The position numbers were made by a program, and so were the translations under genes. Under the pieces are notes generated by a model. That model was not told the origin of the DNA. It saw only the letters and a program-made list of their open reading frames with translations, and ran no database searches. DNA of 64,000 nucleotides. Origin: Dehalogenimonas sp. WBC-2 (lineage in GTDB: Bacteria; Chloroflexota; Dehalococcoidia; Dehalococcoidales; Dehalococcoidaceae). Location of the stretch: contig CP011392.1 in NCBI GenBank assembly GCA_001005265.1, positions 248,001 through 312,000 of the forward strand, written 5' to 3'. Shown here piece after piece: positions 1-12,653 of the stretch (the first letter of the stretch is position 1; each line of letters starts with the position of its first letter).

Positions 1-171
1 GTCAGTGACGCTACCTACTACAAGTGGAAGGCCAAATATGCAGGGCTTTCGGTCAGCGAGCCCAAACGGCTTAAAACCCTGGAAGAAGAAAATCACCGTT
101 TGAAGCAGATCGTGGCCGACCAGGCGCTTGATAATTGGGCGCTTAAAGAGCTGCTCGCAAAAAACTTCTAG
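1..171 (+). CDS. IS3-family transposase OrfA, C-terminal part (cut by window edge)
   Basis: Frame 1 is open from the first base to a TAG at 169-171 and gives 56 residues that fit the end of an IS3 Orf[16 protein letters not shown] segment lies at the end of the helix-turn-helix region, followed by the leucine-zipper-like [17 protein letters not shown] and a tail ending in LLAKNF. OrfA binds the element's ends and normally pairs with the DDE protein encoded downstream. The 5' part is outside the window. The gene ends inside a slippery A-rich stretch, from which the next frame can be reached by a -1 shift. Confidence 0.85.
159..165 (+). other. Programmed -1 frameshift site (A AAA AAC)
   Basis: The heptamer A AAA AAC sits in the OrfA frame (codons gca aaa aac) six bases before the OrfA stop. 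A -1 slip here continues as [14 protein letters not shown] and joins OrfB with no stop in between. This is the classic IS3 arrangement for making the OrfAB fusion transposase. I did not establish a downstream stimulatory structure. Confidence 0.8.
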
Positions 172-194
172 AGCCCAAGGTCAGGCGGGAGGCG

Positions 195-1019
195 GTGGAG
201 TTTGCCAGGGAGAATCTTGGGCTCAGTGAGAGAAGAGCTTATCTGCTTGTTGGTATTTCACCATCGGCCTATCGCTACAAGCCAAAACCAGACGATGATC
301 TAGCCTTGCGCCAACGTTTACGGGATCTGGCTGGACAGCGAAAGCGCTTCGGCAGTCCGCGACTCCACATCATGCTTAAAAGAGAAGGACTGGTGGTTAA
401 TCACAAACGAACCGAGCGTATCTACAAAGAAGAGGGATTGGCTTTAAGGAGAAAGCGCAAGCGCAAAGGCACTGCCGTTAATCGCATCATTTTGCCGCTG
501 CCCGATAGACCTAACCAGAGATGGAGCATGGACTTCGTTTCTGATTCCATCGTTACTGGAAGGCGCTTTAGGACACTGACTATCGTCGATGACTACTCCA
601 GAGAATGCCCGGCGATCGAAGTGGATACCTCTCTCGGCGGCGCCAGGGTGGTGAGCGTCCTGGAAAGATTGTCTGAGATTCGAGGCCTGCCCGAGGTCAT
701 CACCATCGATAATGGACCTGAGTTCGCTGGCCGGGCGCTTGATGAATGGGCTTACCAGCGAGGCGTAAAACTCAATTTCATAAGGCCGGGCAAACCGATA
801 GAAAATGCATTCGCTGAGAGCTTTAATGGCAGGTTCAGGGACGAATGTCTTAATGAGAATTGGTTCATGAACTTAAAACAAGCCCGCGAAATCATCGAGG
901 ATTGGAGGATTGATTATAACGAGGTCAGGCCACACACTTCATTGAAAGGTCAAACACCGCAGGAGTATGCTAAGGCAGGTTCTGGATTCTACTCCGGAAT
1001 GCTACTAAAGGTGGGGTAA
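195..1019 (+). CDS. IS3-family transposase OrfB (DDE integrase domain)
   Basis: The retroviral-type integrase domain cuts and joins the insertion sequence ends. An N-terminal HTH_21-like region (about residues 40-95, with [15 protein letters not shown]) precedes the rve core. The DDE residues are visible as the Asp in WSMDFVSD, the Asp in TIDNGPEF and the Glu in [16 protein letters not shown]; the C-terminal [12 protein letters not shown] motif is also typical. The GTG at 195 is only the first possible start in this frame. The frame is open upstream to the slippery site, so the product is probably the C-terminal half of an OrfAB fusion. Length (274 aa) is normal and the frame is intact, so the element may still be active. 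Its left end is outside the window and I could not define the right inverted repeat. Confidence 0.92.
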
Positions 1020-1052
1020 GGTCATTACGCTGCCTATCAAGGTCACTTTACT

Positions 1053-1196
1053 TTATCTTGTCGACAAATAGTTTGACCATAGAATTGCAAAACTAATTAT
1101 CGCCGCTACAAAGACTATAATCACAACAATGATGTCTTGGCTTTGACTAATTGGTTTCTTTTCAAGTTTTGAGGAAATATTTTTCGGGTTAGCCAT
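1053..1196 (-). CDS. Small single-pass membrane protein overlapping the 3' end of rdhC
   Basis: This 47-residue protein begins MANPKNISSKLEKKPIS, has a hydrophobic helix (IIVVIIVFVAAIISFAILW, about residues 22-40) and a short NYLSTR tail. A good ribosome binding site (GGAGA, 7 bases before the ATG) lies inside the end of the upstream RdhC-like gene, and the two frames overlap by 76 bases. The signal plus the one-helix design argues for a real translated gene at the end of the rdhABC operon. The function is unknown. A small accessory subunit of the dehalogenase membrane complex is an inference only. The neighbouring insertion sequence begins just past its stop. Confidence 0.55.
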   Translation of the reverse strand: MANPKNISSKLEKKPISQSQDIIVVIIVFVAAIISFAILWSNYLSTR

Positions 1197-2356
1197 CTTC
1201 GTGTCTCCAATATTATATCCATGACTGCACCAATCGGACAAAGGTAATAACACCATACATTCTTGATGACTAATGCCGCAAGGAGAATAACACCTACCAA
1301 AATCCATTGTAATCCAACTCCATGCAATGTAAAAAGCGTACCCCACGGCTCAAAGGTAGACACGCTCGCATTTTTCTCGAGCAGAGCTAACGATAAAGCG
1401 AACCACAATAGGAAGTATCTTGCTTGAACAAGTACGTGAAGTAGTTTTGGGTTTGGTCGTATAGAAAACTTGCCCATGAAATGCATGATTTCTTGAACAG
1501 CGGCGAACGGACACAACCAAAAACAATAAAAATTTTTTTTAAAAATTATTGCCAATCCTATTGTTCCAATGACGAGGATAAATATATATAGTTGGTTATG
1601 AATATTTGGAACATACCCAATTAACCAAACAATTATGTCTGAAAGATTAAGTGGGATAGTCAACCAAATTCCAATAATCGAAAGAGAAAAAGCCAAACAG
1701 ACATACCGCACCCAACGATACTTTGGAATAGATTTGTGCAATCTAAGTAATGCCACAATAACCAAACCCAGCGTAACGGCTAATTCCTTTACTCCGAAAT
1801 TAAAGGCTTCTTGCTCCTTAGGGAATGGGTTCCCCAACGCTTGGGCGACCAAAAACCGTGATTCTTTGACAGCTGTGGCAACTCCGTTACTCGAGAAGGT
1901 AGCTCCAGTTACTGTGTCTATATCCTTGCCAACAATAAACGGCTCGGTGTATTCTCGAGATATATATTGATCAAAATAATTATTGGTGACCAACATTTGC
2001 CACCAATTTGCATCCTCGTGCTCTTGTAGGACATGTAGCTTTTTGAGTATTCCGTTTTCGCTCCATAAGATTGCAACTTGAATTAATCCTTTGAAGCCTT
2101 GTCCCTCGTTTACTGTTGCGTAGCCAACTTCTTGTCCGTCCAAAGTAGTGTAAAAAAAAAGGCGATCCGATATATCTACAACATTTTCCGCGGATATAAC
2201 TTCGGGATAAGATCTAAGTATTAATTCCTGAAAGTTTGGTTTTGGTTGAGGTAAATTAGCTATAATTGCAACAATGATCAAGCTGGTTACTGAAATAATC
2301 CTATTAACCCGAACTCCATGTAGTTTGATTGGTGAGACTAAACTTGATTTTTGCAT
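1121..2356 (-). CDS. rdhC: RdhC/NosR-like FMN-binding polytopic membrane protein
   Basis: Proteins of this family accompany reductive dehalogenases and nitrous oxide reductase and are thought to pass electrons or help maturation. After an N-terminal helix, an extracytoplasmic FMN-binding domain (about residues 40-165) ends in DTVTGATFSSNGV, whose Thr would carry covalent FMN. Several membrane helices follow (about 185-375) with two cytoplasmic CxxxCP motifs (CFWLCP and CYYLCP) seen in NosR and RdhC. It is third in the operon after rdhA and rdhB. No clear Shine-Dalgarno site precedes the ATG. Instead a 17-bp hairpin ends ten bases upstream, so expression may be uncoupled from rdhAB. A later start is possible but none has a better signal. 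Confidence 0.82.
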   Translation of the reverse strand: MQKSSLVSPIKLHGVRVNRIISVTSLIIVAIIANLPQPKPNFQELILRSYPEVISAENVVDISDRLFFYTTLDGQEVGYATVNEGQGFKGLIQVAILWSENGILKKLHVLQEHEDANWWQMLVTNNYFDQYISREYTEPFIVGKDIDTVTGATFSSNGVATAVKESRFLVAQALGNPFPKEQEAFNFGVKELAVTLGLVIVALLRLHKSIPKYRWVRYVCLAFSLSIIGIWLTIPLNLSDIIVWLIGYVPNIHNQLYIFILVIGTIGLAIIFKKNFYCFWLCPFAAVQEIMHFMGKFSIRPNPKLLHVLVQARYFLLWFALSLALLEKNASVSTFEPWGTLFTLHGVGLQWILVGVILLAALVIKNVWCYYLCPIGAVMDIILETRRWLTRKIFPQNLKRNQLVKAKTSLL

Positions 2357-2366
2357 TTAGTTTATA

Positions 2367-2415
2367 AAAGTAGCATATTAGACAGATATTCACAGTTGGT
2401 CTAATATGCTACTTT
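2367..2415 (-). terminator. Perfect 17-bp inverted repeat between rdhB and rdhC
   Basis: The arms AAAGTAGCATATTAGAC (2367-2383) and its exact complement (2399-2415) enclose a 15-base loop. On the minus strand the stem is followed by TTATAAAC, only weakly T-rich. It may be a terminator or attenuator after rdhAB, an mRNA-stabilising hairpin, or an operator. Confidence 0.55.
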
Positions 2416-2435
2416 CAAATTAACTTAGCATAGAC

Positions 2436-2723
2436 TTAAGATGGGGTACTTTTAGGATGGCGCATAATTGAGAGTGCCGCAACAACTAACAATATTAAAC
2501 TAATGATTCCAGGAAAAACAAGGTACATTCCTGAAGCTGTTCGTTGCTCCTCCTCCAAAGCAGTCACCGCATTTTGAATTGTGAAAACAAGCAGAAGAAC
2601 ACCAATAACTCCCATTAGCCAATCGTACCATTTCACCGAAAGACCCTTCTTAGAAGAAAAGAATACCAAGCCAATCACACCCGCTCCGACAATCAAACCA
2701 AAAAACATATATAGTAATGTCAT
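2436..2723 (-). CDS. rdhB: Reductive dehalogenase membrane anchor RdhB
   Basis: RdhB proteins are small, very hydrophobic proteins thought to hold RdhA on the outer face of the cytoplasmic membrane. This 95-residue protein has three predicted helices (about 3-22, 34-52, 66-86). Between the second and third it carries the family signature around FTIQNAVTALEEEQRTASGMYL, with the conserved acidic residues before the last helix. AAGGAG lies 8 bases upstream of the ATG. It starts 17 bases after the rdhA stop, so the two are co-transcribed and presumably cognate. Confidence 0.9.
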   Translation of the reverse strand: MTLLYMFFGLIVGAGVIGLVFFSSKKGLSVKWYDWLMGVIGVLLLVFTIQNAVTALEEEQRTASGMYLVFPGIISLILLVVAALSIMRHPKSTPS

Positions 2724-2740
2724 TATAAGCTCCTTATCAA

Positions 2741-4312
2741 CTAATGTGTTTTATATATTCCATAAACTGGAAGGTCTTGTAGGTCCCACCACTCTTCTGG
2801 GTCACGCTCAGTAACGCAAACCTGAGTTTTATAATCGTATTTAGCTCGTGCATAGCCATAGGCGTCATCCATGCTGCGGAAAAAGCTATTGAATATTGTC
2901 GTTGATGCTATTGATGGCTTGACTATAAGGTCGTGAACCCAGGATTTGTCTTGTCTGGACCACGGGCAACTGGCGACACATACTCCGCAAAGAGTGGTCG
3001 CTTCGTACCAGAAGGAAGCACATTTGACACCATCCAGCCACGTGCTTTTTTTACCTGGGTTGTTCCATGTACCTTTCACGTCATATGTTACCGGGTCTGA
3101 CGCTGAAAGCGCCTGTGGAGGGCAATTTTCCTGACACTTACTACATGACGAACAAAAACGCCAAATACCGGCATCAATTGGTTTAGAAGGTGTTAAAGGC
3201 ATATCTGTTATTATTCCGGCAAGCCGTTGTAGGGCTCCAAATTCAGGAGACACAAGCTGCCCTATACGACCATGTTCTCCTAAACCATTTAGAGTTGCCA
3301 TGCCAGGGTTGTTGGATGTTGTATTAATAAACATGAATCCTGCCAAAGCTTCATAACCAAGAGCCTTTATAAAACGCTGCAGCCTAATCTGGGCATAATG
3401 TAGGCGAGAATAGTTTTCTGCCGTGGTGAAGTCTCCAAATAAAGTTGGAGCCCTTTTTATGTTCCAATCAGACATCAGCTGAGATAATGAAATATACCAG
3501 CGCGCCTTGGTGGGAATTACCCTCTTTTCTTTGTCTTGCACTACACCACCCCAGAAAGGTCCAGTCTCATATCCATGATCTACATCTTCAAAGACGATAT
3601 GCTTCCCGTCCCAATCTTGTGTCCAAATCATTTTCTGACCTTTTAGCGAATCAAGCTCTCCCACACCTATTTCATCACAACCATAAAACCTAGATGCGGC
3701 TCTCACAGTACGTAAATTTTCTTCTGGGGTACCTTCCCATCTTGGTACTGCAAGACCCCCCACGGGAAATCCTGGTAACGGAACGCAAAGCGCATCGGGT
3801 GAACCTGGACGCTGTTCAGTACCATCAATCCCAAAGTTCAGATAAAACACGTCTGAATCCGAACCGCCTAACCCAGACATTGGTGATGTTCTTTTGTCTC
3901 CTGTAAAACACTTAGAAAAACCATCAAACCAGCCAAAATTTGCTCCCGTAAAGAGTGCGAAATCTCGTAACGTGTAGCCGGGTTTATTTTCCAAAATCCA
4001 TTGCTTTCGGTTATTCATTGACAGTTTGATTAAATCATCGAGTTTATTTCTGCCTATGCGATCAGCCAAGGAACACTGCATTATGTCGCGCGCATTGAAT
4101 CGCTTCATCGCGTTCCAATCGGTTTCAACTGTGATTTCATCAACCTCTTTTACCCACCATGGCCTTTTTCGCTCACCCGATGCTGAAGATGTAATTTCGT
4201 CTACATCATGAAATAGGGGTGATGTTGCTGTGGCTGCCCCAATCCCTGCTGAAACTAGTCCCAGTCCTTTCATAAAATCGCGACGTGACATCGTTGAATG
4301 ATGGTTACTCAT
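2741..4312 (-). CDS. rdhA: Reductive dehalogenase catalytic subunit RdhA
   Basis: RdhA is a corrinoid iron-sulfur enzyme that removes halogens from organohalides as the terminal step of respiration. The 523-residue protein starts with a twin-arginine signal (MSRRDFMKGLG, Arg at 10-11) for Tat export with its cofactors. The long central region is the corrinoid-binding part. Near the C-terminus is a full CxxCxxCxxxCP ferredoxin motif (CSSCSKCQENCP, about 391-402), then a second cluster motif with CGVCVASCPW (about 442) and an upstream Cys. The length is normal. AAAGGGG precedes the ATG at good spacing. The substrate cannot be read from the sequence. It is divergent from a sensor-kinase operon that probably controls it, and followed by rdhB and an RdhC-like gene. 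Confidence 0.95.
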   Translation of the reverse strand: MSNHHSTMSRRDFMKGLGLVSAGIGAATATSPLFHDVDEITSSASGERKRPWWVKEVDEITVETDWNAMKRFNARDIMQCSLADRIGRNKLDDLIKLSMNNRKQWILENKPGYTLRDFALFTGANFGWFDGFSKCFTGDKRTSPMSGLGGSDSDVFYLNFGIDGTEQRPGSPDALCVPLPGFPVGGLAVPRWEGTPEENLRTVRAASRFYGCDEIGVGELDSLKGQKMIWTQDWDGKHIVFEDVDHGYETGPFWGGVVQDKEKRVIPTKARWYISLSQLMSDWNIKRAPTLFGDFTTAENYSRLHYAQIRLQRFIKALGYEALAGFMFINTTSNNPGMATLNGLGEHGRIGQLVSPEFGALQRLAGIITDMPLTPSKPIDAGIWRFCSSCSKCQENCPPQALSASDPVTYDVKGTWNNPGKKSTWLDGVKCASFWYEATTLCGVCVASCPWSRQDKSWVHDLIVKPSIASTTIFNSFFRSMDDAYGYARAKYDYKTQVCVTERDPEEWWDLQDLPVYGIYKTH

Positions 4313-4647
4313 AAAATCCCCTTTCTGAATTTAGTACCCATTTACTACTAATGCAAACCAACCTAATTCCCCCCTTGTTTTTCAGAATACTCCATTACCG
4401 ATTCAGTATAATGCGAACAAGTTAATTAAGAGTGTCATAACAGTAACATATAAGATACTAAATAGTTACAGTAAGGTAACAATTCTTAAATAAGAGTTCT
4501 TTCCCGACACTAAAGTATTATAATATGCACATAATAGGTGTCGATAGAAGTCGGCTCTTAACTGGTTTGAACTTGAACCCCGTTTCGACTCCTAAAACAA
4601 ATTAATACCAGCTTTCTTGTAATTGACCCAGCTCGTGAGGTTCAAGA
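4313..4647. promoter_or_regulatory. Divergent control region between rdhA and the sensor operon
   Basis: This AT-rich spacer has no gene. A TATACT-type -10 for rdhA lies on the minus strand at 4405-4410, and a TATAAT on the plus strand at 4519-4524 could serve the regulatory operon; neither has a good -35, which suits activator-dependent promoters. Between 4438 and 4482 the motif GTAAC or its complement GTTAC recurs (CAGTAACA, TAGTTACAGTAAGGTAAC), a possible response-regulator binding array. The functions are inferred. Confidence 0.4.
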
Positions 4648-5268
4648 ATGATGAATAATAGTTCCGATCCAGTGAATGGATGGAAAAGACTATTGAACCA
4701 GGGCTTCGATAACGAATTCAGCCTATTCTCAAAGGAGCGATGGCAAGAGTTCATCGAGGATGCGCTCACTCTTTGGAAAAACCATGAACTTTCACCAGCC
4801 GAATTTTATTCGATAGTCAAACTTACCGACACATACCTAAACAATATTATTGACAGTGATGCATCGGAAAAACCGTATGAAACTCCTGTGGACATCGTGT
4901 ACTTCGATAATGTTTTACCTAATGGGGCTCTTTTTCTTGGAGCATTACTTAAATCTATGTCGTATAGCCCTCACTTAATTCCGGTTGGTCACCATCTTGA
5001 AGATTGGCTGAGAATATTTGATGGATTTGATCGCTCATTCGTATTTGTAAGTCTCTTTCATTTTGTCCATATTAAGTCCTTGATTGGGCTGGTTGCTTTT
5101 TTACAAAAACGCAGAATAGACATTATTCTCGGTGGGGCACCGTTTGAGTATGACAAAAGCTTAGCTTCACGCTTCGTTGGGTGCATAGTGCCCAAGGATA
5201 TTAACGAATTGAAGAACATTTTATCTCAGATCAAATCACGAGGTGAAAAATGGAAACTCCGCGTATAG
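4648..5268 (+). CDS. B12-binding-like (degenerate) regulatory protein
   Basis: This 206-residue soluble protein has an N-terminal helical part (about 1-80) and an alpha/beta domain (about 85-200). The second domain follows the pattern of B12-binding domains of MtaC-like and regulator proteins: a first strand VDIVYFD, a helix, a second strand with HLIPVGHHLEDWL, the strand FVFVSLF and the strand IDIILGGAPF, the LGG matching the conserved VGG near the end of that fold. The cobalt-ligating DxHxxG motif is absent, so it may bind corrinoid base-off without a protein His ligand, bind something else, or only act as a scaffold. Its 3' end overlaps the histidine kinase gene by 19 bases, so the two are translationally coupled. 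It is probably the sensor partner of that kinase. The family assignment is from pattern only. Confidence 0.55.
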   Translation: MMNNSSDPVNGWKRLLNQGFDNEFSLFSKERWQEFIEDALTLWKNHELSPAEFYSIVKLTDTYLNNIIDSDASEKPYETPVDIVYFDNVLPNGALFLGALLKSMSYSPHLIPVGHHLEDWLRIFDGFDRSFVFVSLFHFVHIKSLIGLVAFLQKRRIDIILGGAPFEYDKSLASRFVGCIVPKDINELKNILSQIKSRGEKWKLRV

Positions 5269-7034
5269 GAATCGTGTGTTGTGCTGCGATGCAGCATGAA
5301 ATTAAGGATATTCTTAAAAATAGATCTAGTAGCGTTAGAATCTACCCGATGATACCATCTTGTACATTCACGGTAAGAATTGATTTGTTTAGGCATTATA
5401 TTGACAAATCAGTTTCAGAAAATGAAGTAACTGTTCTCGCTTATGGATTATGTCATCCCGAACTACTTGATCTGTTATCTGAATATGGTCAAAGATTGGT
5501 TAGAGTTGGGGGTGACAATTGTTGGGAAATGAGTCTTGGTTTAGATGACTATCTTACCTGTATTGATCAGGGGTACTGGATGCAAAGTAAACCTTTTTTA
5601 ACTCTTTGGAGAACCGAGACTCTTCATGGATTTGGAGTTAACTCTAAAAATGGACAGATGCTTCGAGAAACGGGTGATTTTAAAATTCTTTTTCTGAAGC
5701 AAGCTGCTGATATAAATCTTACGTTCGACTTAATAGACGGATTTGCAAAAGAGACCGGGTTGGGATACGAAATTAAAGACATTGATTCTTCTTATCTCAC
5801 TCGGTTATTAACCAACGCAATCGAAGAAGCGATACGCAACATTCCGGTCACTAAGGAAATTTATCTATTAGACGCCACTCGGTGTCCGGAATCGATAGCA
5901 ATTATCGAACACCTTGACGTTATCATTTATAAAATAGACGTTCATACAAAAGAAATCACCTATGCAAGTTCTCAAGTAAAGAATATTCTCGGTTACAACC
6001 CATCTGAATTTATTGGCATGTTCAATGAATCAGGCACGATGCCGATGAGATCTGATTTGGATAAAAACCGGATCATCACTGAGCGTTGGGATTTCTTGGT
6101 TAAATGTTTGACAAAAGGATTTCAAAAACCTTTTGAAGCTGAGTACAGTATTAAGCATAAAGATGGTCATTATCTGTGGGTAAACGAAAAGTTGAATCCC
6201 ACTTTCGCTAATGACGGTACTTTAGAGTACTTCGTTGGATTAATTGAAAAGATAGACGACAGGAAACATGCTGAAGAACAATTACAAAGTCAATATGAAA
6301 AAGAGGTAAATCTACGTAACCAAATTGAAAACCAGATGCAACGCAGAATTGAATTAACACGAGCTTTGGTCCATGAGCTCAAAACACCATTGACAGCAAT
6401 ATTAGCAGCGAGTGAAATTGTGTCAACTGCCCACTTACAAGAACCTTACTCTGATTTACTCAGACAAATAACCCAATGTGCAAACCATTTAGACCGGCGA
6501 ATTGAAGAGATGTTTGATGTCACAAAAGGCGAAGTGGGGCTTCTCAAGGTTCGATGTCACCACGTTGAAAGTACCCAAGTAATTCGCGAAGTAGCCGATT
6601 GTATGAGACCTGAAGCCATACGGTTAGGATGCTCCCTTGTTGAAGACGTGCCACTCATGATGCCACGAATATGGGCTGATGAAGAACGGTTAAAGCAAAT
6701 TCTATTTAATTTATTGAGTAATGCATTGAAGGTTACACCTAAAAAAGGTGTTATTACCATTAGAGCGAGGGAAGTTGCTTCAAGCCTAGTCATTCAGGTC
6801 TTCGATACTGGCTGTGGAATTAGCGTCGAAGATTTACCATCGTTATTTAATCCGTATCGTCAACTAGGGAATCTGTCAGATAATAAAGGTGGGCTTGGGC
6901 TCGGCTTAGCATTGTCCCAAATGCTGGTGCAACTACACGGGGGTAAAATATGGGCAGAAAGCGAACTCGGTCGTGGTAGCGTGTTAAGTTTTTCGCTTCC
7001 ATTGCCTGCGACCAGAGAGCGGAGTTTGTTATGA
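5250..7034 (+). CDS. DUF1638-PAS sensor histidine kinase
   Basis: This 594-residue kinase has no membrane segment, so it senses in the cytoplasm. Residues 1-195 resemble DUF1638 (VLAYGLCHPELLDLL, then a conserved GGDNCWEMSLG and YLTCIDQGYWMQ), a domain otherwise found beside corrinoid methyltransferases. A PAS/PAC module follows (about 215-345, with KDGHYLWVNEKL), then a coiled coil and a HisKA domain with the phospho-acceptor His375 in ALVHELKTPLTA. The HATPase has an N box (LLSNALKVTP), a G1 box (DTGCGIS) and a G2 box (GGLGLGLAL). GAGGTG precedes the ATG. The stop overlaps the start of the response regulator by four bases. The architecture suggests that a metabolite or corrinoid state is read by DUF1638 and/or the B12-like partner. 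Control of the divergent rdhABC operon is an inference from location. Confidence 0.85.
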   Translation: METPRIGIVCCAAMQHEIKDILKNRSSSVRIYPMIPSCTFTVRIDLFRHYIDKSVSENEVTVLAYGLCHPELLDLLSEYGQRLVRVGGDNCWEMSLGLDDYLTCIDQGYWMQSKPFLTLWRTETLHGFGVNSKNGQMLRETGDFKILFLKQAADINLTFDLIDGFAKETGLGYEIKDIDSSYLTRLLTNAIEEAIRNIPVTKEIYLLDATRCPESIAIIEHLDVIIYKIDVHTKEITYASSQVKNILGYNPSEFIGMFNESGTMPMRSDLDKNRIITERWDFLVKCLTKGFQKPFEAEYSIKHKDGHYLWVNEKLNPTFANDGTLEYFVGLIEKIDDRKHAEEQLQSQYEKEVNLRNQIENQMQRRIELTRALVHELKTPLTAILAASEIVSTAHLQEPYSDLLRQITQCANHLDRRIEEMFDVTKGEVGLLKVRCHHVESTQVIREVADCMRPEAIRLGCSLVEDVPLMMPRIWADEERLKQILFNLLSNALKVTPKKGVITIRAREVASSLVIQVFDTGCGISVEDLPSLFNPYRQLGNLSDNKGGLGLGLALSQMLVQLHGGKIWAESELGRGSVLSFSLPLPATRERSLL

Positions 7035-7714
7035 AAGTTCTAATAGTCGAGGATGACGAAAAAATCACGGCGGTCATTTCCGCCTTATTTCAAGTGAGTA
7101 GACCGGAAGCCAAATTAAAGTGTGCTTCTCTAGGGCAAAGAGGGGTAATTCTCGTTGAACATTATTGTCCTGATGTGGTAATTCTGGATTTGAATCTTCC
7201 GGATATAGATGGATTGGATGCCCTTATAGCTATACGCCGGTTTTCGAATGTACCGGTATTAATTCTGACAGTTAGAGGTGAAGAGAACGACATAGTCCGA
7301 GGATTAACTCTCGGTGCCGATGATTATATTGTTAAACCATTTAAGCCCATGGAATTAATAGCACGCATTAGCACCGTTTTGCGTAGGCAGCGAACCTCAG
7401 AGGAAAAACTCGATGTTCATTGTGGAAAATTACATTTTGGTTCTTCGATTCGACAACTCTATTTTGGTGATCGATTGGTGATGTTGACTGTGACCGAAGG
7501 GAAGATAATACATAAATTAATGGAGAATGCAGGCCATGTTGTCTCTCATTCCATGCTTGCAGGAGCAGTATGGGGTGATATTTATCCAGGTGCAACAGAT
7601 GCCCTGAAAGTCAATATAAGACGTATTCGTCAAAAACTTGAAATCTCCCCCAGCGAACCACAAATAATCCAAAGTGAAGCAGGTACGGGGTATTTTATCA
7701 GAATGGCCGTGTAA
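7031..7714 (+). CDS. OmpR/PhoB-type response regulator
   Basis: The 227-residue protein has a receiver domain (1-115) with the acidic pair EDD near the start, the phospho-acceptor Asp in VVILDLNLPDIDG (about residue 54) and the conserved Lys in DYIVKPFKP. A winged-helix DNA-binding domain follows (about 130-225, with SHSMLAGAVWG and DALKVNIRRIRQKL). The ATG overlaps the kinase stop (ATGA), so the pair is coupled. It is the expected output of the DUF1638-PAS kinase and probably acts on the rdhA promoter region at 4313-4647. Confidence 0.93.
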   Translation: MKVLIVEDDEKITAVISALFQVSRPEAKLKCASLGQRGVILVEHYCPDVVILDLNLPDIDGLDALIAIRRFSNVPVLILTVRGEENDIVRGLTLGADDYIVKPFKPMELIARISTVLRRQRTSEEKLDVHCGKLHFGSSIRQLYFGDRLVMLTVTEGKIIHKLMENAGHVVSHSMLAGAVWGDIYPGATDALKVNIRRIRQKLEISPSEPQIIQSEAGTGYFIRMAV

Positions 7715-7838
7715 TCAGTACTTACAACTTATTTTCACTCCATCCTTGGCTTTTGTCAGGAACGAAATCTCAAAGCATTTATTAACCATGAAGTCATTTG
7801 TAGACCGTCAGCGAAAATAGGACACCAAATAGGCCAAT

Positions 7839-7861
7839 AAAACCGTACACTTGCGGTTTTT
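7839..7861 (+). terminator. Likely terminator after the regulatory operon
   Basis: AAAACCG and CGGTTTT form a 7-bp stem around an 8-base loop, followed by T. It lies 125 bases after the response-regulator stop. The stem is short, so this is moderate evidence. Confidence 0.45.
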
Positions 7862-8067
7862 GGATCAAGCTTCTATGAGGTAGTAAACTCAAATACTCGG
7901 AAAGGAGCTAATGCGTCCCAAGAGTTATTCTCTAGCAAACTCTACAACCCCTACGACATCATCCCCACACACACAATACGGATGCCCTTTCGGCGCCCCT
8001 CTGCTCTTTGTGTATACCAAATACCAATCCATGATCTCGAAGATCGCGATAACGGTTTCACCTTTTC

Positions 8068-8700
8068 ATGGATAGGATTAGCGACTTCAATTGGGTATTG
8101 CCCATGGACTTTGATTGTGCCGTTGTGCTCGCAGATGAGCTTGAAGGTAGGGTCTGGGCGGAAGTCGAAAAGGTATTTACAAATCCATCTCTACTCATTG
8201 AGGACTTCAGGAACCCCGACAACCTGGCCGAGCTCGAATTCAATAAGGAAAACCTGAGCAAACGCCTGGACGAATTGGCGTCACAGGAATCCCGTCTGGT
8301 AAGTTTATTCAGGCTATCAGCGGTAGATGAATCGGTGATTAAAACGCAGATGAAGGACATCGAATCGGATAGGTATGAACTCAAAAGTCAGTTGAAATGG
8401 ATCGATGACATCCTGAACAAGGTGGTCAGCGAAGATACGCTGTTGGCGTTGGTGACCATATACGTCGATGATGTCAAGATCAAATACGGGAGTGGGTCTT
8501 TCCTAGATAAGCGGATGATCTTCAAGAGTTTAGGGGTGTGGGTAGAAGCAACCAGAAGCATAACGAAGATCACGATGCAGGTGAAGGTGGATAGGGTAGA
8601 GTTGGAAAGAGTAATCGAACTTTACACGCTAAAAGCTTTGCTAGCAAACATGCATGTAGCAAGCACTACAATTCGCAATTCATGTATTTGTAGTGCTTAG
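8068..8700 (+). pseudogene. Large serine recombinase, C-terminal remnant
   Basis: The 210 codons match the C-terminal region of large serine recombinases. A VVLADELEGRVWAEVEKVFTNP-like segment normally follows the zinc ribbon. A long coiled coil follows (NKENLSKRLDELASQESRLVSL and DIESDRYELKSQLKWID), then the final DKRMIFKSLGVWVEA strand region. The catalytic resolvase domain is missing. Upstream, about 7911-8067 carries out-of-frame traces (a possible CPFGAPLL zinc-ribbon fragment), so the gene is broken. Such recombinases are typical of genomic islands carrying rdhA in Dehalococcoidia. A second fragment of the same gene lies beyond the second rdhA at 11328. Confidence 0.65.
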
Positions 8701-8775
8701 CTATACGGTTTATATTGGTTAAAGAAAAGTGGCTGTAGATTTGGATTTGGAAGTGGGGTTAAATCGCTCAATTTG

Positions 8776-8813
8776 CGCCGCATGACACATATCGAGATGT
8801 GTGTCATGCGGCG
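8776..8813. repeat. 14-bp perfect hairpin
   Basis: CGCCGCATGACACA (8776-8789) pairs with its exact complement (8800-8813) around a 10-base loop, followed by TATTTTG. It could end transcription from the recombinase remnant or be the end of a mobile palindromic unit. Confidence 0.5.
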
Positions 8814-8908
8814 TATTTTGCTTTGCGTAATAGACCAAATTTTGGGATGTCTGAGGCACAATACACGTCATTCAATACCGTTTTGTATCCCTGTGGAGGG
8901 AGCACAAA

Positions 8909-9238
8909 ATGGTTCTCACCGCCGACGATAGGGAATTCGTCGAAAAATTCAACCAAACTATCCCCGGAGCGCCCCGACCCATTCAGGAAGTTGATGTTCT
9001 GAGGCTTATCAAGACCCATGGCTTCTTTTTCCGTTCCTCCAGTAGCCGGCATTCCAACCAGCATACTGGATTTTGTATTTTTCAGGTGGTCCCCTTTTCG
9101 GCCGCCGTTTATCTCAAAACTGGGCTCCTTTTATTATGCCGAAAACAAGCCTCAGGCGATTTCATCGATGAATGCAAATCGCAGTTCGATATTATCCAGC
9201 GTCCCTATTTGAACGCTTTTAACTTTTGTTTGTATTAA
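8909..9238 (+). CDS. Small ORF of unknown function, doubtful
   Basis: An excellent ribosome binding site (GGAGGG, 8 bases before the ATG) precedes 109 codons. The first 35 residues look protein-like (MVLTADDREFVEKFNQTIPG), but the rest is low in structure and rich in Ser, Phe and Leu and may be read-through of a broken gene. A minus-strand frame over the first half (9064-8804) is also open. I do not recognise either. It lies between recombinase debris and an orphan rdhA, in a region with other broken genes. Confidence 0.3.
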   Translation: MVLTADDREFVEKFNQTIPGAPRPIQEVDVLRLIKTHGFFFRSSSSRHSNQHTGFCIFQVVPFSAAVYLKTGLLLLCRKQASGDFIDECKSQFDIIQRPYLNAFNFCLY

Positions 9239-9245
9239 ATAGTTA

Positions 9246-9271
9246 GACCGGGGAACCTGGGTTCCCCGGTC
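9246..9271 (+). terminator. Intrinsic terminator
   Basis: GACCGGGGAAC and GTTCCCCGGTC form a perfect 11-bp GC-rich stem with a CTGG loop, followed by TCTTTTATT. It ends rightward transcription before the convergent rdhA gene, and may also work leftward. Confidence 0.75.
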
Positions 9272-9367
9272 TCTTTTATTGCTGGATCACTTTTTCTTTG
9301 ATTTACCTGTAGCTGTTATACACTACCCTGGTGGTATCGATGCCGAACATCGGGAATGACCTGCTGT

Positions 9368-10792
9368 TTAGTAGTAGATTTTACCAAGGTTATAACCCCA
9401 TGCCGGCAACTCCTTGTCCCACCATTCAACGGCTTTGTTGTTGAAGACACCGGTAGTTGGATCTCTCCCTGGACCGAAGTCTCCGGGACCATATCCCATT
9501 ACATCGTCCATTGTCCTGAAGAAACCGTTAAACATGGATGTCGTGCTCACAGTAGTCTTAACGAGTTCGTGGACCATAGCGCCAGTGCCTTTGTTGAAGA
9601 CACAAGCAGCTTCGCATGTGCTACATTGACCAATAGTAGTCCTGTAAATATGGCAATTCAGCATGTGGTTCTGGAACTGCTTATGACCTCGATTCGACCA
9701 TTCTGCTTGCGGTTCCCAGCTTTGTTCACCGTGAGTGATAGCTCCGTTCGGGCAGGCATCGGCGCACTTAGCGCAGCTATCGCAGAACTTCAGTATGCCA
9801 GCGTCGATCGGGTTGGTCGGCTCCAAAGAAAGATCGGTTGTCAATGAGGTCGGAGTAAATCCAATCCCAGCAGATGGATTAATGCCGTGGTTACCGGCAC
9901 GTCCGAGCTCTGTCATTCCAACCATGGTATCCAATCCAGGGTGGGGATAACAGTTCTCATAACCTCCGAACATACACTGGTAGCCTATCCCCATCAGAAA
10001 ACGCTGCGTACAGCTACCTGTCACTTCAATCATAGTATGACCGAGGCCAGTTGAAGCATAGCTTATCTGAGAAGGACCTGTCGCTATGTTTTCAACGGAA
10101 TTAGGACATGCTAGTCCAATACCCCACAATGGAACATTAGGAAGGACATCTACGCCAGCATCTGTAAAGCCTTTTGGAACATCTCTGAACTCATACTCCT
10201 CGAAAACAAACTTTTTAGTCTTCTCATTAAGTTCCATATAGCCCACCATGCTAGCCCCATACAACTTAAGAACTGACCGGAGCATGCGTGAGTTCTCTTC
10301 TGGAGTCCCTTGATATTTCGGTACTCCGTATGACGCGAAGTCGGCAATTGCGCCGGTATAAACCCAGGGAGTTGTTGCTCCAGGCGGAAGACCATTCTGA
10401 GCGGCCAGCACCTTATCTTGCAGCCTGTAGCCAGGTTTATTTGCGGTCATCCACTCTTTTGCATTCACTTTTCCCGGATTACCCGCTAGTTGTAAGAACT
10501 CTGCAGCGGTTACGGCGCCAGGATATCCGCCACGTACCCCAGCCTTTCTAGCGCCCTGCTCCTCAGGGTAACGATTAAACATGTCCCAGTCAATTTCGGT
10601 GGTAGGGTTTTCAATTTCCCTTTCTTTTATCCACCAAGGTTTGTTGGGGTGGCTCAACGAACCAGCCGACATCATCTCATCGAGATCATGGAACACCGGA
10701 GCTACTAAAGCAGCCCCACCAATTCCTGCACCTGCAATCCCTATTGCTTTCATGAAATCCCTGCGACTTACTGTACTATGAAACGTTGACAT
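9368..10792 (-). CDS. rdhA: Reductive dehalogenase RdhA (orphan, no rdhB)
   Basis: This second corrinoid iron-sulfur dehalogenase has 474 residues. The start is set at 10792 (MSTFHSTVSRRDFMK) because GAAGGAGA lies 8-9 bases upstream; the frame extends to a TTG at 10810, but that codon overlaps the binding site itself. The Tat motif SRRDFMKAIG is followed by a hydrophobic stretch. Iron-sulfur motifs are CDSCAKCADACP (about 334) and a second with CSTCEAACVF (about 390), in which Val replaces the usual Pro, as in several known RdhA proteins. The protein ends WWDKELPAWGYNLGKIYY. No RdhB-like gene lies on either side, so it must use an anchor from elsewhere or be soluble in the periplasm. It is flanked by recombinase fragments, which suggests acquisition with an island. 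Confidence 0.94.
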   Translation of the reverse strand: MSTFHSTVSRRDFMKAIGIAGAGIGGAALVAPVFHDLDEMMSAGSLSHPNKPWWIKEREIENPTTEIDWDMFNRYPEEQGARKAGVRGGYPGAVTAAEFLQLAGNPGKVNAKEWMTANKPGYRLQDKVLAAQNGLPPGATTPWVYTGAIADFASYGVPKYQGTPEENSRMLRSVLKLYGASMVGYMELNEKTKKFVFEEYEFRDVPKGFTDAGVDVLPNVPLWGIGLACPNSVENIATGPSQISYASTGLGHTMIEVTGSCTQRFLMGIGYQCMFGGYENCYPHPGLDTMVGMTELGRAGNHGINPSAGIGFTPTSLTTDLSLEPTNPIDAGILKFCDSCAKCADACPNGAITHGEQSWEPQAEWSNRGHKQFQNHMLNCHIYRTTIGQCSTCEAACVFNKGTGAMVHELVKTTVSTTSMFNGFFRTMDDVMGYGPGDFGPGRDPTTGVFNNKAVEWWDKELPAWGYNLGKIYY

Positions 10793-11327
10793 TAATGTGT
10801 TCTCCTTCAATTAATTGTTACTAGTGGTCTTCACCACTGCCCTCCGGTCTTTCCCGGTTGTCAATTCCATTATCGCCTCCTTAAAATTGATGGACATAAT
10901 GGAAAGAGTACCATCACAGAAAAATTATACGCTGAAAACAATAAGAATAGAATACGCCATTATGCGTAGAAATAATAATAATATGCTAACATAAAGTTAC
11001 ATAAATAATACCTGATCTTCACGCTCAACTTGGAGGTTACTGGTTAAAAGTAACAGACAATAGTTCACGTTTATATTTCGGGTGTTTATACCAGTTAATT
11101 TTCAAATATTAGTGGTAAATCAAAGATCAACAAATCCATTTTGAGCCATTGATTCCAAGAATGCTGCGCAATCTTCTTCTGCTCTGTTAAACGGAATCCC
11201 ATGTTGTTAGACAGTTTTTGAACTATTTGCTTAAAGCTGGTATTGCCATCACAGGATACTCTAGTCCTAGGACGATGAACAGATAGGAGAACCATATGTC
11301 TGGAAATATGCGCTCTCAACAGCCTGG
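10793..11327. promoter_or_regulatory. Upstream region of the orphan rdhA
   Basis: A perfect -10 (TATAAT on the minus strand, 10924-10929) lies about 130 bases before the rdhA start, without a good -35. Next to it ATACGC occurs twice and GCGTA once (about 10927-10966), a possible regulator site. From about 11080 to 11320 only weak short frames are present, such as a 74-codon minus-strand frame at 11095-11319 that I do not recognise. No regulator gene adjoins this rdhA. Confidence 0.35.
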
Positions 11328-11360
11328 GACTTTGATCGTACCATTGTGCTCGCAGATGAG
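11328..11360 (+). pseudogene. Second fragment of the serine recombinase
   Basis: Thirty of 33 bases match 8107-8139 of the recombinase remnant (GACTTTGAT...GCTCGCAGATGAG). It lies in the same orientation but beyond the orphan rdhA, and the similarity fades after a few more bases. This points to duplication or repeated insertion of the same recombinase around rdhA. Confidence 0.6.
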
Positions 11361-11419
11361 TTTGTAGATGCGACGGTCTGTGATGGGTAGGTTGGGGAAT
11401 TGGTATTGGGATATAGGAG

Positions 11420-11509
11420 CGAACCCTTCGATTAACTCAGGGCAGGCTTAAAGAGGAGGACTGTTCGACAAGCTCGTCGAGTACTAACTCGGGACAATCA
11501 GAGTGAATG
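11420..11509. repeat. Dispersed palindromic repeat (TTCGACAAGCTC family)
   Basis: The stretch contains TTCGACAAGCTC and a small palindrome CGAGT-ACTA-ACTCG followed by GGGACAA. The same family recurs at 24565, 26491, 55005-55260 and 59707 in this window. It is a short non-coding dispersed element. Confidence 0.65.
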
Positions 11510-11563
11510 TTGACTAGTTAGAAAAAGGATCCCTGCGAGATATTTTAAAAACGGCGGGGGGGA

Positions 11564-11878
11564 TTATTCGAGTTCAGGGCCTCGGTTCCATGTGATGCGA
11601 ACGATGTCGGCTAACAAAAAAGAGGTCAACGGCAACTTCCTGTCCAGGAGGTGGTGTCTGATGTAAGCGCCGCAAAACTGGCCGGCGGCAAAAACGCCAA
11701 CGAAAACAGGAACCATGGCCCAATTCCAAGAAAGAAAAACCAGGCGTAAGATGATGGCAATGGGGACGGGAAGATGGATGGCTAATATCCATTGAAGCGA
11801 GAACTTTTTAGTGTTGGCCCGCCAGTAGCCGAAGACGATGTTGAGCAAAAAGATGGCGATCAAGATTATAAACAGCAC
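11564..11878 (-). CDS. Small membrane protein of unknown function
   Basis: The 104-residue protein has three hydrophobic segments (about 1-17, 28-50 and 54-70) and a polar tail with RHHLLDRKLPLTSF. A GTG start is preceded by GAGAGG about ten bases upstream. It lies downstream of a molybdopterin-type lipoprotein gene on the same strand, with a gap of about 110 bases. A membrane partner for that protein, as MsrQ is for MsrP, is possible, but it shows no clear heme-ligand pattern and is not recognisably MsrQ. Confidence 0.55.
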   Translation of the reverse strand: MLFIILIAIFLLNIVFGYWRANTKKFSLQWILAIHLPVPIAIILRLVFLSWNWAMVPVFVGVFAAGQFCGAYIRHHLLDRKLPLTSFLLADIVRITWNRGPELE

Positions 11879-11990
11879 TGATGAATAACCTCTCGGCAGG
11901 CAGTTGTTTCATTCCGCTATCGGATAGCGGCAAGAATAGCATTATTAGCAAATGAATGCACGGTAGGAACGCCAGGCCGCCCTAAAAGCG

Positions 11991-12653
11991 TTATTCAAAA
12001 CGCGGGCCGTTGATGTCGGCGTTATTGTTATAGCCCCGGGTCTCCCAATAACCACGGAAATTATGATCTGATGATAATTCAATCCGGGTGACCCATTTGG
12101 CCCATTTGTAGCCGTATTTACCTTCAGCGATAACCTGGAACGGGAAGCCGCGGTCTTGCGGCAGGGTCACGTCATTGATGCTTAGCGCAATAATGACGTC
12201 CTGGCTTTGGATATAACTCAGCTCAAGAGAAGTGTAGCCGTCGGGGACATCTGACGTATAGAAGATGACATTTACCGCTCCGGCCTGTATCCCTGCTTCA
12301 TCAAAGATGGAGGAGAGGGCAGGCCCGGTCATTTTAACCACAAAACTCCAGCCTTCAACGCAATTCAGGGTGACCAGTTTGGTAACCTGAGGCAGGTTTT
12401 GCAGGTCTTTATAGGACAGACTGAGGGTCTGTGTCACCAGGCCGTCCACACTTAAGCTGTAAGTTTCCTTGTCCAGACGCTGAGTACCGCTGAGGGCGTT
12501 GTTTCTCTGATTACCAATAGGGGTCAGGGTAACACCCTGGTACTCTGTGGCCTCAACCTCGCCGGGAGGCGGGGTGAAGGGGGAACTGCAACCGCCGAGG
12601 ATGAGCACGACGGCCGCTACCAGAGCTACCAGAGATGTCTGCTTAGTTTTCAT
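11991..12653 (-). CDS. Lipoprotein with sulfite-oxidase-type molybdopterin fold
   Basis: The protein begins with a lipoprotein signal (LILGGCSS, lipidated Cys about 22). The rest (about 60-215) is a compact oxidoreductase molybdopterin-binding domain: SVDGLV at the start, LNCVEGW with the Cys that would bind Mo, SLELSY, and LPQDRGFPFQVIAEGKYGYKWAKWVTRIEL near the end. It would sit on the outer face of the membrane. MsrP and YedY-like proteins reduce or oxidise S and N compounds, but no substrate can be read here. No molybdenum cofactor genes are close by. It is smaller than MsrP and probably lacks the dimerisation domain. Confidence 0.8.
   Translation of the reverse strand: MKTKQTSLVALVAAVVLILGGCSSPFTPPPGEVEATEYQGVTLTPIGNQRNNALSGTQRLDKETYSLSVDGLVTQTLSLSYKDLQNLPQVTKLVTLNCVEGWSFVVKMTGPALSSIFDEAGIQAGAVNVIFYTSDVPDGYTSLELSYIQSQDVIIALSINDVTLPQDRGFPFQVIAEGKYGYKWAKWVTRIELSSDHNFRGYWETRGYNNNADINGPRFE

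Follow-up and report, generated by a model that had tools for sequence, protein, structure and literature searches.

A soluble two-component system with a putative corrinoid-derived input module beside the rdhABC genes of Dehalogenimonas sp. WBC-2

Known rdh regulators and the WBC-2 locus

In Dehalococcoides and Dehalogenimonas, the reductive dehalogenase genes dcpAB, tdrAB and cerAB all lie beside two-component systems with soluble kinases, the signal of which is an open question according to the accessible portion of a 2026 account (PMC13390414; cited from that portion throughout). These RdhP/RdhS systems consist of a soluble PAS-type histidine kinase and an OmpR regulator beside rdhAB, and the accessible text mentions neither a DUF1638 domain nor a B12-fold partner (PMC13390414). 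The PceS/PceR-type two-component systems of Sulfurospirillum, CprK and Rdh2R also regulate rdh genes, but they have other input domains or belong to other regulator classes, and no B12-type module is mentioned in the accessible part of the source (PMC7755780). Cobalamin-fold domains, built of a helical cap and a Rossmann domain, occur in regulators of another kind, namely CarH and related MerR-B12 proteins, AerR and the photocobilins. Members of the DUF1638 family occur in systems of corrinoid methyltransferases and of MetH reactivation. In Phaeobacter inhibens, B12-dependent methionine synthesis requires one such gene along with a gene for a RamA-like activator, which links this member genetically to B12 reactivation (PMC5764234; see also PMC12478193).

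The window, i.e., the whole stretch of 64,000 nucleotides analyzed here, covers positions 248001-312000 of the closed WBC-2 genome (1,725,728 bp). It contains three overlapping genes (the trio) divergent from rdhABC, and the open reading frames lie precisely where an earlier note on this DNA had placed them, with overlaps of 19 nt (B12L/kinase) and 4 nt (kinase/regulator). In window coordinates, the features are:

1121-2356, minus strand: rdhC-like FMN-binding / 4Fe-4S membrane protein (FMN_bind/Fer4_5)
2436-2723, minus strand: rdhB-like membrane anchor
2741-4312, minus strand: rdhA, the presumed target of the trio
4443-4480, plus strand: candidate regulator site, a GTWAC-like array in the divergent promoter region
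4648-5268, plus strand: B12L, 206 aa (ORF, Pfam, family profile, fold model)
5250-7034, plus strand: soluble sensor histidine kinase, DUF1638-PAS-HisKA-HATPase, 594 aa (ORF and Pfam)
5250-5837, plus strand: DUF1638 domain of the kinase (Pfam)
5958-6242, plus strand: PAS_3 domain of the kinase (Pfam)
6345-6533, plus strand: HisKA domain of the kinase, with H-box VHELKTPL and the codon of the phospho-acceptor His375 at 6372-6374 (Pfam and sequence)
6678-7007, plus strand: HATPase_c domain of the kinase (Pfam)
7031-7714, plus strand: OmpR/PhoB-type response regulator, 227 aa, with the Asp53 codon at 7187-7189 and a C-terminal winged helix

All kinase domains score above their Pfam thresholds (DUF1638 33.5 bits against a cut-off of 27, PAS_3 49.2, HisKA 44, HATPase_c 99.3), as do both regulator domains (Response_reg 88, Trans_reg_C 66). 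The H-box His375 and the receiver Asp53 are intact. As in systems of the RdhS/RdhP type, a HisKA domain with its H-box and a HATPase domain are combined with a receiver Asp and an OmpR-type effector, and rdhA is adjacent; phosphotransfer and control of rdhA would be the presumed functions of the trio. The sensor had been read as cytosolic, and hydropathy analysis of 15 trio kinases revealed no membrane-like segment, the maximum 19-residue value being 0.8-1.7 compared to 2.5 for the RdhC control.

By their coordinates, the tdrA, cerA and dcpA systems of the published account (PMC13390414) are trios of the kind found in the window; not all RdhS kinases have a DUF1638 domain and B12-fold partner. 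A soluble two-component system beside rdhA in this genus is already on record, judging from the accessible text (PMC13390414), whereas we found no publication of the B12-derived input module. In the open full-text literature searched, DUF1638 is named in three papers, one of which also uses the term histidine kinase but concerns a PHB regulator, and nothing tied DUF1638 to rdh regulation.

On the far side of rdhC lies an IS3-type transposase gene (195-1019), and just after the trio is a 210-aa open reading frame (8068-8700) that resembles the C-terminal part of integrase family PHROG 95 and is probably a recombinase remnant. Among known RNA elements, such as the cobalamin riboswitch, none scored above threshold in positions 1-12000 of the window.

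Distribution of the trio and linkage to rdhA

Within the order (156 genomes), fusion of DUF1638 to a kinase is limited to Dehalogenimonas and Dehalococcoides. A search of 400 genomes of the phylum with the B12L profile led back to these nine genomes, with their 17 loci, and to weaker matches. Three of the weaker matches were examined and have genuine B12-binding domains; two are MerR-B12 regulators and the third is a B12 protein that contains a GAF domain. At every one of the 17 loci with a DUF1638-kinase or its remnant, B12L is directly upstream and rdhA lies within ~3 kb. Because 15 distinct homologous loci were compared in detail, chance is excluded as the source of the trio. Three further kinases that are linked to rdh genes in these stretches have neither DUF1638 nor B12L, so the pairing is specific. 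A B12-fold match for the first protein, a DUF1638 domain at the kinase N-terminus and homologous trios near rdhA were all found, in line with what that note had anticipated.

The correlation among the pairwise distances of the four components (B12L, DUF1638, kinase and regulator) is strong, at 0.91-0.97, and weaker with those of RdhA, at 0.65-0.79, all values being inflated by relatedness. The three best matches of the window RdhA in ten related genomes are each encoded directly downstream of the regulator of another trio, and a scan of genome contigs with RdhA gave six distant loci, none with a trio. The divergent arrangement of trio and rdhA is conserved in the window and at two further loci (L053 and L054). 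We consider it probable, with good confidence, that the trio regulates the neighboring rdh genes.

WBC-2 carries a second, diverged trio at ~386-389 kb, beside a second rdhAB, so that the trio in the window is no one-off. An IS21-type transposase pair lies by this rdhAB, and IS21 genes are described near tdrA in WBC-2 (PMC13390414); we infer that this second rdhAB is tdrAB. Compared with coordinates from the same source, the IP3-3 and NSZ-14 dcpA islands hold two other trio loci (L058 and L059), and locus L056 of genome G031 is the GP locus with the 85% homolog of the WBC-2 RdhA, presumably cerA (PMC13390414). The second WBC-2 locus (L003:1-9672, corresponding to G000:C1 ~380000-389671) and L056 share essentially the same DNA sequence for 9.7 kb, apart from rdhAB, where identity falls to 83-90% at sharp borders; at the protein level the trios are 99-100% identical and the RdhA proteins 85%. 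One sensor here serves two dehalogenases: the dehalogenase was either exchanged or diverged (rapidly) under a constant sensor and cassette, so that in this instance the signal is not tied to one version of RdhA. Between the second trio and rdhB, a second OmpR-type regulator without its own kinase is encoded (L003:4333-5019).

A degenerate cobalamin fold paired with DUF1638

The first protein had been described as a degenerate B12-binding-like fold, and this description holds: its score against Pfam B12-binding (PF02310) is 15.8 bits, below the cut-off of 32.1, but profile comparison and fold model agree. The family profile of B12L aligns with MerR-type, CarH-like cobalamin sensors at an hhalign probability of 97.7% (E 2e-12, 161 columns); methyltransferase corrinoid proteins reach only 15% and receiver domains 0.3%. 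The AlphaFold2 model (pLDDT 80.7, pTM 0.78) comprises a helical cap (~residues 29-70) and a Rossmann domain of the cobalamin-binding type (~residues 79-204), and all 50 best PDB matches in Foldseek are cobalamin-fold proteins, with E-values from 7.5e-8. As the TM-score is only ~0.5, the fold class is clear and the details are not. The matches include AerR, MerR-type B12 proteins, photocobilins, MttC, a Desulfitobacterium cobalamin protein, MtaC, MetH and CarH, as well as the SCHIC domain of AppA (4heh). PDB sequence searches with B12L and with DUF1638 yielded no credible match for either, and no B12L relatives were found in viral contigs. The B12-type fold of cap plus Rossmann domain is confirmed by the family profile and the fold matches. 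The corrinoid kinship drawn earlier stands as far as this fold is concerned, with its direction changed, as CarH and related MerR-B12 regulators are the closest sequence relatives; descent from a methyltransferase corrinoid protein is ruled out by the hhalign values.

In CarH, W131 is the cap aromatic, H142 the upper and H177 the lower cobalt ligand. Mapped through L089, W131 corresponds to W43 of B12L (W in 12 and Y in 3 of the 15 copies), H142 to F53 and H177 to L90, and neither His is present in any copy. Position 90, the lower-axial His of D/ExHxxG in CarH-like proteins, is L, I, Q or V throughout, and of the Wx9EH cap motif the aromatic is kept in 15/15 and the EH is lost. B12L also differs from CarH-type regulators in having no DNA-binding domain and in working beside a histidine kinase. 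The copies diverge fast (~20% identity); invariant residues are L101, G162, G163, F166 and P182. Judged from the alignment, B12L keeps the fold and the nucleotide-loop GG while the cobalt ligands are gone. Since a protein-derived cobalt ligand is absent in every copy, corrinoid binding may have been lost, and direct binding is uncertain.

These losses, together with the low identity between copies, fit a B12L that acts as a pseudo-receptor, a cobalamin-fold scaffold docking onto DUF1638, with the PAS domain or the DUF1638 cysteines of the kinase sensing the organohalide or a redox partner. Direct organohalide or redox sensing has been proposed for these soluble kinases (PMC13390414). The tdrA and cerA loci have identical trios, and both dehalogenases act on chloroethenes. 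A pure scaffold, however, has no obvious need for the GG pair, the cap aromatic (W/Y in 15/15) and the groove architecture, all of which are kept, and the pairing with DUF1638 is strict, both halves coming from cobamide biology. We regard this explanation as rather unlikely. A corrinoid-linked signal remains our leading hypothesis, held at slightly less than an even chance.

The assignment of the kinase N-terminus to DUF1638 (PF07796) proved correct for the window kinase; the paralog scores 43.4 bits, and the most diverged trios score 23-27 bits, just under the cut-off. The domain model has a pLDDT of 88.8, and Foldseek revealed no convincing solved relative (best TM ~0.3). The association of the family with corrinoid methyltransferases was likewise borne out: in seven other Dehalococcoidia loci, DUF1638 lies beside MttB and RACo. 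Outside the family it is placed between these two, and a corrinoid protein and a methyltransferase are encoded there as well. Other matches in the class (393 genomes) are frames of ~200-290 aa or, in G245, fused to MttB. At L088:4271-6319, MttB and DUF1638 form one protein within a methyltransferase operon, which supports a direct physical link between them. All 11 family genomes lack MttB yet retain RACo, so that DUF1638 is redeployed in the trio. A scan of genome contigs with DUF1638 gave no match.

Cysteines 11, 38, 68 and 91 are invariant in all trios. C11, C68 and C91 as well as the YGxC motif are common to the trio and the compared methyltransferase-linked proteins (one of which has no N-terminus as called), whereas C38, found in 15/15 trios, occurs in none of the latter. 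Unlike those proteins, the trio domain is fused to a PAS-kinase and has lost the four further cysteines of the methyltransferase type. In the predicted structure, each of the four trio cysteines either coincides with the end of a beta-strand or follows it, so that they could meet at one sheet edge and form one site.

Such a site might bind a metal or Fe-S cluster, or the B12L pocket might hold another cofactor, making the trio a haem, Fe-S or metal/redox sensor. The SCHIC domain of AppA, a degenerate B12-type domain in a signaling protein, binds haem, and it is among the fold matches of B12L. B12L has no conserved haem-ligand residue, however, and methyltransferase-linked DUF1638 shares three of the four conserved cysteines, which may therefore serve a general corrinoid-related role; we consider this alternative improbable.

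Candidate regulator site and proposed mechanism

Between the trio and rdhA, half-sites GTAAC, GATAC, GTTAC and GTAAC follow one another with a period of exactly 11 bp (4443-4480), as would be expected of OmpR/PhoB-type tandem sites. The array was equaled in 0 of 500 mononucleotide shuffles, a figure that is optimistic as the period, strand and half-site were picked after viewing the sequences. Better support for the candidate array comes from the genome-wide count: exact GTTACN6GTTAC pairs number two per genome, and in four genomes one of the two lies just upstream of a trio. The array is convincing just for a subset with similar regulators (the window, own2/G031b, G027a and G029a); its position near the trio promoter in the other members supports autoregulation more directly than control of rdhA. 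With regard to the regulatory target left as inference in the earlier note, the divergent region offers a candidate array.

In the mechanism that we propose, B12L, with its CarH/AerR-type cobalamin fold devoid of both protein-derived cobalt ligands, would join DUF1638 to form the input module of the PAS-kinase. The presumed complex would report a corrinoid-linked state, such as whether a cobamide is bound or what its redox or alkyl state is, which the organohalide might alter; the real sensor could, however, be the PAS domain. His375 would then phosphorylate Asp53 of the regulator, which would bind the 11-bp-period GTWAC array and set transcription of the trio and rdhABC. Taken as a whole, the reading of the trio as a cytosolic switch that has a corrinoid-derived input module and acts on the divergent rdhABC is, in our judgment, evenly balanced between true and false. 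In a more specific version, which we consider unlikely, B12L cradles a cobamide without a His ligand and the DUF1638 cysteines read the state of the cobalt, yielding a histidine kinase gated by a cobamide or alkyl-cobamide. Such a kinase would report the presence of the dehalogenase cofactor, or of the reaction product of organohalide and cob(I)amide. We know of no cobamide-gated histidine kinase.

To the question of what soluble rdh-linked kinases sense, the trio offers a specific ligand class, two proteins and one DNA site as candidates. As the systems next to the characterized dcpA, tdrA and cerA genes are, by coordinates, of the trio type, the module bears on genes used in chlorinated-solvent bioremediation. 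Cobamide supply is a known limit on these bacteria, and if cobamide gates the kinase, it would also be a gene-expression signal.

It is highly improbable that the trio travels with rdhA on mobile islands as a passenger, without regulating it: insertion sequences, a recombinase remnant and ssrA-linked dcpA islands do occur near trios, and in two genomes an IS3-like insertion has replaced the kinase part (L048:7754-9173 and L049:7881-9300, where B12L and a 203-aa DUF1638 stub remain beside rdhA), but the complete linkage spans two genera with matching RdhA clades, the divergent arrangement is conserved, the repeat array is nearly unique and expression of rdh-linked regulators has been published (PMC13390414).

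Short paralogs (~600 aa) of B12-dependent ribonucleotide reductase are encoded up to 10 times per genome, several beside rdhA, for instance at positions 380182, 1510969, 1582858 and 1673036 of G000:C1 and also in other genomes. An adjacent copy was rejected as a trio-specific corrinoid clue, since short NrdJ paralogs are common in these genomes. A transporter resembling bile-acid-sodium symporters, with weak family scores, recurs near trios (L050:7103-7909, L051:10370-11311, L052:10441-11358, L055:14432-15364 and L058:1989-2936).
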